Assembly: GCA_019637095.1 (NCBI GenBank)
Contig: JAHBWG010000002.1
Span: forward strand, 62,001 to 126,000
Direction of reading: 5' to 3'
Source: Sandaracinaceae bacterium
GTDB lineage: Bacteria; Myxococcota_A; Polyangia; Polyangiales; Sandaracinaceae
Length of the DNA: 64,000 nt
In this document: piece by piece, positions 30,942-36,465 of the stretch
Layout of the letters: each line of letters starts with the position of its first letter
Position numbering within the stretch: the first letter of the stretch is position 1
Program-made: the position numbers and the translations under genes
Notes under the pieces: generated by a model
The model's input: the letters and a program-made list of their open reading frames with translations, nothing else
The model's database searches: none
Told to the model about the DNA's origin: nothing

Positions 30942-32189
30942 ATGGGCTCGCCTCGTCCCGCTGGACGCGACGGCGCCGAGGGGGGGCCCTCGCCGCGGCG
31001 CTGGCCGCTCGAGGCCGCGCGGGTGTCGCTGCTCGTCGGGGCGGTGTTCCTGCACGCGGTGGTCGGGCTCTCGCTCGCCGCGAGCTGGGGAACGGACGAG
31101 TTCGCGCGGCGGGACTGGGCGGCGTTCCGCGACGCCGGGCGGCGCGCGCTCGAGGGCGACGTGGTCGAGCTCTACGCGCCGCGGCCCGGCGGCTTCCCGT
31201 TCCTGCACCCGCCGTGGGTCGCCGCGCTCCTCGCGCCGGTCGGGCAGCTCGGCGACGCCGCGTTCTACGCGCTGATGGTGCTGCTGCAGCTCGCCGGGCT
31301 CGCGCTCGCCGTCGCCGCGCTGCGGCGGCTCTCGCCCGAGCACGAGGCGCAGGACGTCGTCGTCCTGGGCGTGCTCGCGTCGGCGCCGTGGGCCATCGGG
31401 CTCGTGCTCGGGCAGCCGAGCGCGCTCGTCCTGGGCGCGTGGCTCGCCGCCTTCTGGCTCCTCTCGCGCGAGCGCCCGGTACACGCCGGGGTCCTCTTCG
31501 GTCTCTGCGCGATCAAGCCGCCGTACGTGGTCGCGCCGATCCTTCTCGCGCTCCTCGCGCGCCGCCCGCGGATCCTGCTCGGGATGGCCGCGTCCGTCGC
31601 CGCGCTGTTCGCGATCTCGCTCGGCGTGGGGCACTGGCCCGAGTGGCTCGCCGCGGTCGGCCGCACGCTCGACGACATCGGCGGCGCGCGCGCCGCCCTG
31701 TGGAAGCAACACACGTTGCTCGCGTTCCTGCGCTCGGCCGCGCCGCGGGAGGTCGCGCTCGGGCTCTACGCGCTCGCGGCGCTCGGGCTCGGTGCGCTGT
31801 TCTGGCGCGCGCGCGACAGGGAGGTGCCCGCGCTGCGCGCGGCGGGCTGGCTCGCGCTCGGCACCCTCGCGCTCAGCCCGTTCGCGTACTTCTACGACGC
31901 GCTCCTGTGTGCGATCCCCGCGGCGTCGCTGTGGCTCGGCCGCGACGGGTACGCGCCGCGCGCGCGCCCGCTGCTCGCCGGGTTGGCGCTCGCCACGTTC
32001 GGAGCGCAGCACGTCGGCTTCTTCGCGTTGCAGTCCGGGCCGCCGTGGGCGGGTCTGCTCGTCACCGCGTGGCTCCTCGCGGAGCTGGTCGCGGTCGCGC
32101 CCTCACCGCACCATCGGATTGGAGAACTCGACGGGCAACCGGATGGGGACGACGGCGAGGCTCGGGGCGAGGTCGTCGGGGACGGGTGA
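30942..32189 (+). CDS. GT87/DUF2029-like polytopic membrane protein
   Basis: 415 residues with about nine hydrophobic segments and few soluble loops. The first loop after helix 1 contains DWAAFRDAGRRALEGDVVELY, and FPFLHPPWVAALLAPVG follows; these are typical of GT87 alpha-mannosyltransferase-like (DUF2029) proteins, which use polyprenyl-phosphate sugars. The conserved FLHPP(W/Y) is clear. Donor and acceptor are unknown. ATG 30942 gives a short charged N-terminus before helix 1. The last 87 bases overlap the end of the convergent TonB-like gene. Confidence 0.85.
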   Translation: MGSPRPAGRDGAEGGPSPRRWPLEAARVSLLVGAVFLHAVVGLSLAASWGTDEFARRDWAAFRDAGRRALEGDVVELYAPRPGGFPFLHPPWVAALLAPVGQLGDAAFYALMVLLQLAGLALAVAALRRLSPEHEAQDVVVLGVLASAPWAIGLVLGQPSALVLGAWLAAFWLLSRERPVHAGVLFGLCAIKPPYVVAPILLALLARRPRILLGMAASVAALFAISLGVGHWPEWLAAVGRTLDDIGGARAALWKQHTLLAFLRSAAPREVALGLYALAALGLGALFWRARDREVPALRAAGWLALGTLALSPFAYFYDALLCAIPAASLWLGRDGYAPRARPLLAGLALATFGAQHVGFFALQSGPPWAGLLVTAWLLAELVAVAPSPHHRIGELDGQPDGDDGEARGEVVGDG

Positions 32190-33413
32190 GAACGGCGTCG
32201 CGCGCCGGATCGCCGCGAGCGCCGCGCGGTCGAGGTCCGCGAAGCCGCTCGAGCGGACGAGCCGCGGCGCGCCACGCAGGCGTCCGTCGCGTCCGACGGA
32301 GAGCATGTAGATCGTCGTTCCCTGATCCATCGCGAGCGCGCGCTCGCGAGGGAACTGCAAGGCGTCTTGCACACGACGGCGGGTCTCGAGCACCCAGCGC
32401 ACGTAGCGCCCGTCGTTCGTGTCGAGCGCCGCGTACGGGCCGCCGCCCGGCCCCCACGCGGAGGCGCGCCCGCCCTCGCGCGTGCCTCCTCCCGAGCCCG
32501 GCGCGCCCGCGCCGTCCACCCCGCCGCGGCCGGGCCCCTCGCGCCGGCTCGTGCGCGAGGACGCGTCGACCCACGACTGACTGAGCGACGCCGCGAGCAG
32601 CTCCGCGTCGGCGTCGTCGCGCACGCGCGCGTCGGAGCGCTCCGCGATCGTCGCGGCGGGGCCTTGGTCGATCGCGGGGCGCGCGAACGCGGAGCGCGCG
32701 CGCGCGCTCGCGCGGGCCCCCTCGGCGGACAGGGCCGGTCCTGGCTCGCCGGGTGCTGTCCGCGCGGCCCCGCGGAGCTCGCGGGACGAGCCGAAGGCGC
32801 TCTTCGGCCGAGCCGCTCCCGCGAGCGCTCGCCGTGCCTGCACGTGCTCGGCCGGGAGCGCGCCCGCGAGGCTCGCCTCGGGCGCGACGCGCGCGCCGGC
32901 GCGCGGGTCGAGCGCGGCGAGCGGGCGGCGCTCGCGCAGCACGCCGTCACCGGACGCGAGGAACACCTCGTCGCGCGGGCTCGGCGTCGCGCGCCGGCGC
33001 TCGAGGGTCGCGCGATCGTTGGCGGTGCGGATGCGCTGGAGCTGCGCCGCCGCGACGTTGGTCAGCGGCGAGTCGAACAACAGGATGCGGTCGTCCTGGA
33101 TCATCAGGCGCATGCCCGCGCGCGCGCCGCTCGCGTCGCCCCCCTGGCCCGGGTCGAGCGCGTCGAGGTTCTGCCGCGAGGTCGAGCCGCCCGCGACCGC
33201 CTCGGCCGCGGCGTGCGCGAGCTGTCCGCGCGTGCTCGCGCCGAGCGCGCCGGCGCTCTCGATCGCGTCGAGCGCCACGAACGGGTCGAGCGGCGCGCTC
33301 GGCGATGCGCGCTCGGCGCGAGGGGAGGGGAGCGTGAAGAGCGCGAGGGTCAGCGCGAGGTGGACGACCGACGAGATCGCGGCGGCGGCGAGCAGCGGTC
33401 TCGTCCTCGACAT
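32103..33413 (-). CDS. TonB C-terminal domain protein
   Basis: 436 residues. One N-terminal membrane segment (LLAAAAISSVVHLALTLALF), then a long Ala/Arg/Ser-rich periplasmic linker (about 40-340). The C-terminus is a TonB-like domain (TTIYMLSVGRDGRLRGAPRLVRSSGFADLDRAALAAIRRATPFSPVP), including the family's G-x-[LV]-x-x-x-x-[LIV]-x-x-SSG-x-x-x-LD motif. It would transmit energy or bridge to an outer-membrane partner. No ExbB/ExbD is in the window. Its C-terminal end overlaps antisense with the GT87 gene by 87 bp. Encoded 48 bp after the Lgt-like gene on the same strand. Confidence 0.87.
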   Translation of the reverse strand: MSRTRPLLAAAAISSVVHLALTLALFTLPSPRAERASPSAPLDPFVALDAIESAGALGASTRGQLAHAAAEAVAGGSTSRQNLDALDPGQGGDASGARAGMRLMIQDDRILLFDSPLTNVAAAQLQRIRTANDRATLERRRATPSPRDEVFLASGDGVLRERRPLAALDPRAGARVAPEASLAGALPAEHVQARRALAGAARPKSAFGSSRELRGAARTAPGEPGPALSAEGARASARARSAFARPAIDQGPAATIAERSDARVRDDADAELLAASLSQSWVDASSRTSRREGPGRGGVDGAGAPGSGGGTREGGRASAWGPGGGPYAALDTNDGRYVRWVLETRRRVQDALQFPRERALAMDQGTTIYMLSVGRDGRLRGAPRLVRSSGFADLDRAALAAIRRATPFSPVPDDLAPSLAVVPIRLPVEFSNPMVR

Positions 33414-33461: not shown

Positions 33462-34751
33462 TCACCTCGCGGCCGGCTCGCCGAGCATCCCGAACACGAG
33501 GCCGCCGTCGTCGCGCTCGACCGCGGCCCACGCGGGCGCGTCGTTCGCCTCGACGTAGACGGGCAGGCGCAGCGCCTCGGCGATCGCGTCCACTGCGTCC
33601 GCGTCGCGGCTCACCGCGACGTCGCGCTCGGTGCCCGAGTTCGCGGCGACCAGCGCCGCGAGCGCCTCACTCGGGTGGGACACACGCCACACGTGCAGCC
33701 GCGCGGGCCCGAGCGCCGCGATCTCTTCGGCGATCGCCTCGAGCGGCGGCGCGTCGCCGCGGGCGTCGATCACGAGCGCGCCGCCCGGCCACCGCGCGAC
33801 GTGCGCGGCCGCGATCTCGGGGACCTCGATCCGCACCGGGCCCCGCACCGCGCCGACGAGCGGGAGGAGCTCCTCGACCGTCCTCGGATCGGGCGTGCCC
33901 TCGTCCTCCGCGGTCCAGCGGATGTCTCGGGGCAGCGCGTAGCGCGGCGCGCGCCGGATGTGCAGCCACACCGCGAGGCCCACGAGGAACAGCAGGATCG
34001 CCCCGTAGTGGCCCGGCGTGAGCCCGAACAGCACGCGCGGATCGCCGTTCGGGATGTCCGTCGCGCGCAGGAAGTCGAGCGCGAAGCGCACGGGCGCGTA
34101 GAGCATCGGCACGATCGCCGCGTAGAACCCGCGGGGTCGCTTCGTGCGCCCGAGCCACAGGAAGACCGGGATCATCGCGGCGCACCAGAAGACCTCGTAC
34201 AGCCCGAGGTCGTGGCGCGTCTGCCACGGCGGGCTCATCCCGCTCACCTGGTAGTCCGCGACCGCGAGCGGGAAGTCGGTGACGCGCCCGGGGTGATCGT
34301 GCGTGACGAAGCAGCCGAGGCGCCCGAGGAGCCATGCGAACGGGAACGCGTACGACGTGAGGTCGGCGAACGGGAGCAGCGGGTAGCGCCGCCGCGCGAG
34401 CCACACGAGGCCGCCGATGATCGCGCCTGCGAACCCGCCGAAGCTCGAGAGCCCGTTCCACAGCTGGAGCACGAACGCCGGGTTCTCGCGCACCACCTCC
34501 CAGTGATAGAAGACCGCGTCGAGCACGTGGCCCAGGACGAAGCCGCCCACGAGCACGTAGGCGGCCATCTCGCCGAGGACCCTCGGGTGGATCCCTTCGA
34601 TCCGCGCGCGGCGCGAGGCCACGCTGACCCCGAGCAGCACGCCCGCCGCCACGAGCGCTCCGAACGGGTGCAGCGTGATTCGATCGGGGAGCACGCTCAC
34701 GTCGGGGAGCGGGATCGCGAGCGGCTCGGGCTTGAACCAGGGGATCTGCAC
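33462..34751 (-). CDS. Divergent prolipoprotein diacylglyceryl transferase homologue
   Basis: 429 residues from GTG 34751 (MQIPWFKPEPLAIPLP ... ITLHPFGALVA), the usual Lgt start. The membrane domain has about seven helices. Lgt's signature GRxGNFxNxExxG reads GRLGCFVTHDHPG (143-155), and the segment aligned with E. coli GMSFHGG reads GLSSFGG, so the His equivalent to H103 is Phe104. The RFxxDFLR motif is kept. A 150-residue C-terminal extension (about 285-429) is not part of normal Lgt and I do not recognise it. Either a second Lgt with altered chemistry, or a different acyl/prenyl transferase. Given so many lipoproteins nearby, the question matters. Confidence 0.75.
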   Translation of the reverse strand: MQIPWFKPEPLAIPLPDVSVLPDRITLHPFGALVAAGVLLGVSVASRRARIEGIHPRVLGEMAAYVLVGGFVLGHVLDAVFYHWEVVRENPAFVLQLWNGLSSFGGFAGAIIGGLVWLARRRYPLLPFADLTSYAFPFAWLLGRLGCFVTHDHPGRVTDFPLAVADYQVSGMSPPWQTRHDLGLYEVFWCAAMIPVFLWLGRTKRPRGFYAAIVPMLYAPVRFALDFLRATDIPNGDPRVLFGLTPGHYGAILLFLVGLAVWLHIRRAPRYALPRDIRWTAEDEGTPDPRTVEELLPLVGAVRGPVRIEVPEIAAAHVARWPGGALVIDARGDAPPLEAIAEEIAALGPARLHVWRVSHPSEALAALVAANSGTERDVAVSRDADAVDAIAEALRLPVYVEANDAPAWAAVERDDGGLVFGMLGEPAAR

Positions 34752-34867: not shown

Positions 34868-36286
34868 CTACAGCCCGCAGCCGCGGGACCCCGTCTCCTC
34901 CGTGCAGTAGCAGGCACCGCACCCGGAGCTCCCGCGGGTTCGCCAGCTCCCGTTGCAGCACTGGTAGCTCGCGGAGCACGCGGTGTTGGCGTAGCGGCCG
35001 CCGTAGCTGTGCGTGCACGACGCGCCCGCGGGCGGGCCGGAGGACGCGCTGCAGCCGCGGGTCCCCGACTCCTCGACGCACGCGCAGGCGCCGCACCCGG
35101 AGCCGCGGGTGCGCCAGCTGCCGTTGCAGCACTGGTAGCCCGAGGAGCACGCGAGGTGTCCGTAGTTCCCGCCGTAGCTGTGTCGGCACGACGCGCCCGT
35201 CGACGGCGCCGGCGCGGGAGCCGGGGCGGGCGCGGGGGCCGGCGCCGTCGTGCCGCTGCGCGCGATGGAGAGCATGTCGCCGATCCGCGGGCGCAGGCGG
35301 TCGCCCGGGCACGACGTCGACTGCCCGGAGTGCTGGCCGTGGCCGCGGACGCGGTCGGTGTTGAGCGCGATGCCGTAGACGCGCGAGAGCCGGCCGATGA
35401 GGCGCCCGCCCGCGTTGATCATCGCGGTCGGCGGCGTCGTCGTCCCGAGGCCGCTGCAGCCGCTGCTGTTGAAGCAGCCGATGAACGAGATCCCGATGTT
35501 GCCGGTGTTGTTGTTGCCGACGTGCGCGCCGAGCAGGTGCAGCGGGCGGCCCTCGTAGATCGTGCCGTCGATGCCGATGAGGAAGTGGTAGCCGACGTCG
35601 CACCAGCCGCGCGAGTCCATGTGGTAGTTCTGGATCCCGCGCATCTGGCGCGCCGGGTTCGCGGAGCCGCTCACCGTGTGGTGGATCGCCATGCGCGACT
35701 TGCTCGCGTTCTGCGACGTGCACCGCGTCGCGCGCGCGCCCCACCCCGACCGCGTCACGATCCCCATCCCGCTCAGCTCGCTGCGCAGGGCCTCCTGCGC
35801 CGCGCCGATCTCGTCGTCGAGCGCCTCCTCGGGCAGGTCCACCGAGATCTCGGGGACCACCGCGTTCCAGCGGAAGTGCTGGATGATCGCGGCGTCCTCG
35901 CGCGCGATGCGGAGCTGGGCGCCGTCGGCGATGGTGCCGAGCTCGGCGACGCCGACGTAGTGGTCCTCTTCGCCCCAGGTCTCGGTGACGTCCACCCACT
36001 CGCCCGACGGCACCCCGCCGACGAGCGGCCGCGCCTGCACGCGCGGCATCAGGCCGGGCTGCGACTGCGCGATGAGCATCCCGACGCGCGAGGCGCCGTC
36101 CGGCGCGTCGAGGGTCGGCGAGACGAGCCAGTCGCCGTCGTACTCCCAGCTCCCGCTCATGATCTCTTCGAGCGTGGACTCCATCTCCTGGCGGCCGTGG
36201 CCGTTGTACTCGCCGTCGCCGAGCTGGGCGGCGCAGCCCGCGAGGGTGAGCAGGACGGTGCCGATCGTGATGTTGCGCGTCTTCAT
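34868..36286 (-). CDS. PGRP/N-acetylmuramoyl-L-alanine amidase lipoprotein
   Basis: 472 residues from ATG 36286 (signal peptide MKTRNITIGTVLLTLAGC). A domain of unknown type (about 25-165) precedes an amidase_2/PGRP domain (about 165-345): zinc ligands H (AIHHTV), H (RGHGQHS) and C (STSCPGD), and the Tyr in GYHFLIG. It cleaves the amide between MurNAc and peptide. A (Ala-Pro) linker leads to two tandem 50-residue Cys-rich repeats (CRHSYGGNYGHLACSSGYQCC and CTHSYGGRYANTACSASYQCC), each with about eight Cys. These could bind cell wall or protect against proteases. A surface lysin is plausible for a predator, but that is inference. Confidence 0.92.
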   Translation of the reverse strand: MKTRNITIGTVLLTLAGCAAQLGDGEYNGHGRQEMESTLEEIMSGSWEYDGDWLVSPTLDAPDGASRVGMLIAQSQPGLMPRVQARPLVGGVPSGEWVDVTETWGEEDHYVGVAELGTIADGAQLRIAREDAAIIQHFRWNAVVPEISVDLPEEALDDEIGAAQEALRSELSGMGIVTRSGWGARATRCTSQNASKSRMAIHHTVSGSANPARQMRGIQNYHMDSRGWCDVGYHFLIGIDGTIYEGRPLHLLGAHVGNNNTGNIGISFIGCFNSSGCSGLGTTTPPTAMINAGGRLIGRLSRVYGIALNTDRVRGHGQHSGQSTSCPGDRLRPRIGDMLSIARSGTTAPAPAPAPAPAPAPSTGASCRHSYGGNYGHLACSSGYQCCNGSWRTRGSGCGACACVEESGTRGCSASSGPPAGASCTHSYGGRYANTACSASYQCCNGSWRTRGSSGCGACYCTEETGSRGCGL

Positions 36287-36465
36287 GGGGGGACGCATCC
36301 GCACGAGCCGTGCCGCCCTGTGAGCGAGTGCACGTGCAGAGTTGGTGCAGCACGGAGTCTGCACAGCGTCGCGGGACCGTGCGGATGCGCGCGTGCGCGC
36401 TGTCCAAGTTCCGGTCAGTCCGCGCCGCGAGGTGCGGCGCCGAGGCTGCAGGTGCTGAAATTATT

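Follow-up and report, generated by a model that had tools for sequence, protein, structure and literature searches.

We identify in the Sandaracinaceae bacterium GCA_019637095.1 a gene, here called lgtX, whose 429-residue product represents a genuine Lgt subtype, conserved and so far little described; as judged from its sequence, it is most likely an Lgt in which the active site has been rebuilt. Our favored reading, to which we give a probability of about 60%, is that lgtX belongs to an ancient and distinct branch of the LGT family, the HDH type, and acts as a PG-dependent prolipoprotein diacylglyceryl transferase. Four lines of evidence support it, namely the modelled fold, the retention of the PG-site residues, a monophyletic clade that spans the phylum, and genomes where an HDH protein is the sole copy and occurs with LspA and lipobox proteins. 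The gene lies in a 64,000-nucleotide stretch of contig JAHBWG010000002.1 (positions 62,001 to 126,000), referred to as the window, and the features in Table 1 are numbered from the first letter of that stretch.

Table 1. Features of lgtX and its downstream neighbor, in window coordinates
Feature	Positions	Strand	Basis
lgtX, HDH-type LGT-family protein, 429 aa; GTG start at 34751, stop codon 33464-33462	33462..34751	minus	PF01790 118.8 bits and coding signal
7-TM Lgt core (predicted), residues 1-280	33912..34751	minus	AF2 pLDDT mostly >90; VIA-align vs 5azb
SSFGGF, residues 102-107, counterpart of E. coli SFHGGL (H103 = F104)	34431..34448	minus	alignment to E. coli Lgt
Signature motif GRLGCFVTHDHPGR, residues 143-156 (E. 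coli GRLGNFINGELWGR)	34284..34325	minus	alignments
RHDLGLYE, residues 179-186, counterpart of E. coli RHPSQLYE (E186 = E202)	34194..34217	minus	alignments
RFALDFLR, residues 222-229 (R222 = R239, D226 = E243, R229 = R246)	34065..34088	minus	alignments
C-terminal tail (residues 281-429), for which the searches gave no relatives	33465..33911	minus	low-confidence AF2 model, coding statistics, searches
Protein with a TonB C-terminal domain; its gene begins 48 bases beyond the stop of lgtX	32103..33413	minus	PF03544 5.1e-9

The product begins VQIPWFKPEP, and G+C content by codon position (0.71/0.47/0.96 in the core, 0.85/0.53/0.97 in the tail) supports the minus-strand frame for both parts; no Pfam family matched the plus strand of the same interval. 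The LGT family, PF01790, covers residues 24-263 with a score far above its cut-off of 24.9 bits, and a phmmer search of PDB sequences returned E. coli Lgt (5azb) as the only match, at 4.7e-9. The TIGR00544 equivalog cut-off of 118.9 is missed by lgtX (69.8) and also by the canonical Lgt of the same genome (108.6), which makes that cut-off a strict one for the phylum Myxococcota. An AlphaFold2 (AF2) model built from a 69-sequence alignment matched 5azb and nothing else in the PDB at E<=0.001, and VIA-align superposed residues 1-270 on 5azb with Z 21.9, rmsd 2.8, 253 aligned positions and 22% identity, so that the predicted core has the Lgt fold. The earlier note had described an Lgt homologue with a tail of about 150 residues, and both parts of that description hold; the family score and the E. 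coli Lgt-like predicted fold identify the homologue, and the tail follows the last helix, from about residue 275.

Model confidence in the tail is low within the full model and 46.8 when the tail is folded alone. Searched as 144 residues against 53 related genomes, it gave a confident match in its own genome only, seven others reaching at most 23 bits, and by this sequence comparison the tail is unique to the window's genome among those 53. No Pfam family exceeded its cut-off, DUF6928 falling below it at 0.018. The tail contains no cysteine. HDH relatives have shorter tails, often rich in K/R or D/E. We do not claim a thioredoxin-like domain for approximately residues 323-410, as the VIA-align match to calsequestrin and others (Z about 5) lies in the range of common arrangements and the model there is of low confidence.

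Lgt of E. coli K-12 (NC_000913) served as the reference for residue equivalences. PG-site residues R143, E202, Y235, R239 and R246 are retained as R144, E186, Y218, R222 and R229, and lgtX is also like the E. coli enzyme (PDB 5azb/5azc; PMC4728403, in the portions considered here) in its predicted fold and in G142, G145 and G154. Unlike E. coli Lgt, lgtX has F104 for H103, C147 for N146, T150 for N149 and D152 for E151, the last within an H151-D152-H153 motif that takes the place of G150-E151-L152. RHDLGLYE likewise stands for RHPSQLYE, with the acceptor-side residues S198 and Q199 changed to L182 and G183; E243 corresponds to D226, and lgtX carries the 150-residue tail. The residues by which we recognize a canonical Lgt, H103 of the HGGL motif and N146 and E151 of the signature motif, are all replaced. 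That a phenylalanine occupies position 104 where the proposed catalytic histidine was expected, and that the signature Asn and Glu give way to Cys and His/Asp, had been read correctly beforehand, residue for residue.

In the part of PMC4728403 (Mao et al.) drawn on here, E. coli Lgt is inactive as H103A/N/Q/R/Y, R143A/E/K or E151A/Q, and N146A is inactive as well (PMC8689077; PMC13251419, both in part). As E. coli mutants at either position are inactive and the HDH protein lacks both H103 and N146, it may do different chemistry. The sections of the 2026 survey PMC13251419 considered here report that E151A is functional in a strain lacking lpp, that other bacteria have Y, W or F in place of H103, which its authors argue is too poorly conserved to be the acceptor-cysteine base once proposed, and that N146 and E151 become C and C/D in distant Lgts. 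Among the distant enzymes described there, those of L. interrogans and M. smegmatis (MSMEG_5408) have N146 changed to Cys as lgtX does; the L. interrogans Lgt also keeps R143 and R239, and it restores cell morphology but viability only poorly. A subgroup in the same sections that includes Myxococcales lacks R143 and R239, whereas lgtX keeps both. Loss of H103, N146 and E151 in Lgts is, on those portions of PMC13251419, an already known phenomenon. No mention of the HDH motif was found in the portions consulted or in the wider literature searched; the motif, the clade that carries it and its sole-copy status appear to be new.

The replacements in lgtX are not a matter of chance, because the motif residues of the HDH clade are invariant among 23 aligned members (R144, C147, H151, D152, H153, R179, D181, Y218, R222, D226 and R229). 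Across the 69-sequence alignment R144, C147, D152, H153, G155, E186, Y218, R222 and R229 are invariant, with H151, P154, R179, D181 and D226 conserved at 90% or more. A maximum-likelihood tree of 72 LGT proteins, two of 74 rows having been dropped as duplicates, recovered the HDH clade as monophyletic at 100/100; all 22 rows labelled HDH fall there, together with the variant G114_L164 (AFDHPG). Outside it, on the other side of the tree, lie the canonical Lgts (99/97) as well as the GCC and GCD types. With its HDH and RHDLGLYE motifs, lgtX belongs to this clade. The long branch of one HDH row, G059_L256, leaves its placement unsure.

Relatives are widespread. Matches at E<=1e-5 occurred in 54 of 56 genomes, and 50 of the 56 reached 1e-20 or better (a hand count that includes the window's own genome); at least 30 loci, 29 besides lgtX itself, align with GRxGC...HDH and HDLGxYE-like motifs, L037 being incomplete. 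In the phylum as a whole, matches to the profile at 1e-10 occur in 269 of 282 genomes, although other LGT paralogues also reach that level; by hand count, about 156 of the 282 have a match at 1e-35 or better. A weak match does not mean absence, as G059, weak in this 282-genome survey, has a divergent HDH member. A contig scan confirmed 280 of 305 candidate stretches, and almost all of the best 80 carry the labels Myxococcota, Myxococcales, Deltaproteobacteria or Polyangia, one (L106) being labelled Planctomycetota.

The window's genome (9.25 Mb, 197 contigs) gives eight PF01790 matches, two of them within one 348-residue ORF on contig C90, and hence seven LGT-family genes; by motif these are one canonical, three GCC-type, two GCD-type and one HDH-type, the last being lgtX. 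The canonical gene, L002 on contig C111, has SHGGG and RVGNLFNSEIVGR. Its product shares the PF01790 core, R143 and R239 with lgtX; unlike lgtX it has H103, N146 and E151 and falls in the canonical clade. The GCC-type Lgt of contig C90 (L004/L008) is closer to lgtX in that it keeps R143 and R239, has Cys for N146 and lacks H103, but it has GCC in place of HDH, adjoins two lspA genes and belongs to a separate clade. The earlier note had suggested looking for a canonical lgt elsewhere in the genome and building a phylogeny, with lgtX as a second transferase. The canonical gene exists, so lgtX is not the only lgt; its standing as an additional LGT-family protein is supported, and the tree sets it apart from canonical Lgts. 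A genome of the same family assembled as a single contig (G001) also has seven LGT-family genes, and the seven in each of these two genomes exceed the "up to four" Lgts per genome given in the portions of PMC13251419 considered here.

We surveyed LGT types in 24 genomes, the window's own plus sets of 11 and 12. Members of the HDH clade occurred in 21, a figure that includes the G114 variant and the G059 row with its long branch, and a canonical Lgt in seven. Both occurred in six genomes, canonical without HDH in one (G102), and neither in two (G087, G190). HDH without canonical was found in 15 of the 24, a biased rate, since seven of the 11 had been chosen for a single TIGR00544 match and four of the 12 for lacking a strong HDH match. 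Many genomes of the phylum thus lack a canonical Lgt, and in these the lipidation of lipoproteins is probably the work of GCC or HDH types. We also saw an additional LGT type, marked by a DGCYG or DGDYG motif, in G087 (L228, L236), where H103 is kept, and in G063 (L223).

In 12 genomes lspA adjoins a GCC-type lgt or its SCCYG relative, exemplified in the window's genome by two tandem lspA genes followed by a GCC-type lgt (contig C90:97017-99192, L257). No lspA adjacency was found at HDH, GCD or canonical loci among 253 loci of all kinds scanned, with flanks of about 1.5 kb for most and up to 6 kb for named HDH loci. In most of these genomes, then, the usual partner of LspA seems to be a paralogue other than the HDH protein, and where several paralogues coexist the GCC type appears to fill that housekeeping role. 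There the acceptor of the HDH protein could be narrower or different, in keeping with its changes at S198 and Q199.

HDH genes themselves had no constant neighbor in the 80 loci examined (flanks up to 6 kb) and the window. Their surroundings vary by lineage and include enolase/MutS2-like, TonB-domain or mreBCD/PBP2-like genes, assigned by eye except for TonB. A relative of the TonB-domain gene downstream of lgtX lies near an HDH lgt in 10 of 80 loci examined. Adjacency alone gives no substrate, and we rejected a substrate assignment from gene neighborhood; neither the TonB neighbor nor the tail explains the function of lgtX. Just upstream of lgtX, at 34868-36364 on the minus strand, is an Amidase_2 (peptidoglycan amidase-like) protein with a signal sequence that ends, by eye, in LAGC and a Cys-rich, repeated C-terminus. 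At six other loci (L082, L091, L092, L110, L120 and L124) a lipid-kinase-like gene of the diacylglycerol kinase type, by eye, is convergent to the HDH lgt and is followed by mreB-, mreC-, mreD- and PBP2-like genes.

Of 77 genomes, seven with an HDH protein had a single TIGR00544 match (G010, G061, G066, G074, G082, G106 and G114). Four of the seven have a second divergent member, which is GCD-like in G061, G106 and G114 and a short, odd protein in G010; G061, assembled as one contig and 99% complete, pairs its HDH protein with a divergent GCD relative that lacks E202. In the other three, PF01790 at E<=10 gave a single match in G066 and likewise in G082; G074 had a second match, but at 7.6 bits it lies under the cut-off. 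The only credible LGT-family gene in each of these three is of the HDH type. All are drafts of 40-150 contigs. As they belong to a single genus (g71) and are 96-99% complete, common loss of other Lgts is likelier than three assembly gaps.

Each of the three genomes encodes two LspA proteins, one of which per genome has the NPGAAFG and GNFIDR motifs that we take to be those of LspA. Their best Pal-type proteins (L195-L197) bear LSAC lipoboxes detected by script; further lipoboxes were seen by eye where the script listed none, SVAC in L201-L203 and GSGC in L194 of G061. LspA acts on diacylglyceryl-cysteine substrates, and with LspA and lipobox proteins both present some enzyme in these genomes should make diacylglyceryl-cysteine. 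The HDH protein is the only candidate for that step that their predicted LGT-family proteins offer.

The earlier note had proposed that the missing residues signal a different substrate, and a rather unlikely alternative is indeed that lgtX transfers a diacylglyceryl or other PG-derived group to a different acceptor, either a non-lipobox cysteine or a non-protein molecule. The half of the site that handles PG is retained while H103, N146, N149, E151, S198 and Q199 change together, the HDH clade is deep and separate, and in many surveyed genomes its members coexist with a GCC-type Lgt beside lspA and are never beside lspA themselves. These points are offset by the three genomes whose only credible LGT-family gene is of the HDH type and which keep LspA and lipobox proteins, and by the GCC and GCD types, which share the H103 and N146 losses; as GCC pairs with lspA, such losses mark no new acceptor. 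The published replacements of H103, N146 and E151 (PMC13251419, in the portions considered here) point the same way. The view that the missing residues signal a different substrate is not supported, although a specialized acceptor in the window's own genome may hold. Another alternative is that lgtX lipidates the invariant cysteine of MYXO-CTERM proteins before the myxosortase (MrtX) cut. The part of PMC11980579 drawn on here proposes an as-yet-unassigned Lgt-like enzyme for this step but saw processing in E. coli and favors Lgt itself. Many genomes, the window's own among them, have both HDH members and MrtX-family matches, yet G087, G102 and G190 have MrtX-family matches (9.9e-29, 6.0e-30 and 7.4e-34) with no HDH member, and G062, G092 and G097 have strong HDH matches with no MrtX match. 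The MrtX profile (NF040593) is a rough one that rests on E-values, matching 220 of 282 genomes at 1e-3 with none above the curated cut-off. We reject MYXO-CTERM lipidation as a general role because the phyletic profiles mismatch both ways, and consider it highly improbable for lgtX.

It is also conceivable, but improbable, that lgtX is a paralogue without catalytic activity, or one in decay, that persists for some other role such as lipid binding or regulation. It differs from E. coli Lgt at three positions whose importance there has been tested, and further losses occur within the clade, G114_L164 being without the first histidine of HDH and G012_L252 without E202. Deep conservation of R144, E186, Y218, R222, R229 and the HDH motif argues against decay, as does the existence of sole-copy genomes.

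Returning to lgtX as a prolipoprotein diacylglyceryl transferase, we envisage that PG would be bound between R144 and R222 and that a lipobox cysteine would be the acceptor, attacking C3 of the diacylglyceryl moiety with release of glycerol phosphate, as has been put forward for the E. coli enzyme. With none of H103, N146 and E151 in place, the cysteine must be positioned and activated by a network of another build, perhaps one that uses H151-D152-H153 of the signature loop. It is tempting to speculate, and we do so tentatively, that the HDH clade has moved the acid-base group, such that the histidine with which TM3 begins in E. coli (H103) has been lost and the signature loop holds a His-Asp-His triad in its stead. 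Alternatively, the triad serves a different acceptor. In the window's genome lgtX is probably a second Lgt, either redundant or devoted to a subset of lipoproteins.

If the acid-base group has moved, Lgt catalysis would need none of H103, N146 and E151, and one fold would house two active-site designs for the same reaction. Missing "essential" residues alone do not reveal a new substrate. A clade that lacks all three residues, and is apparently the sole Lgt in a few genomes, provides a test of which residues Lgt needs.
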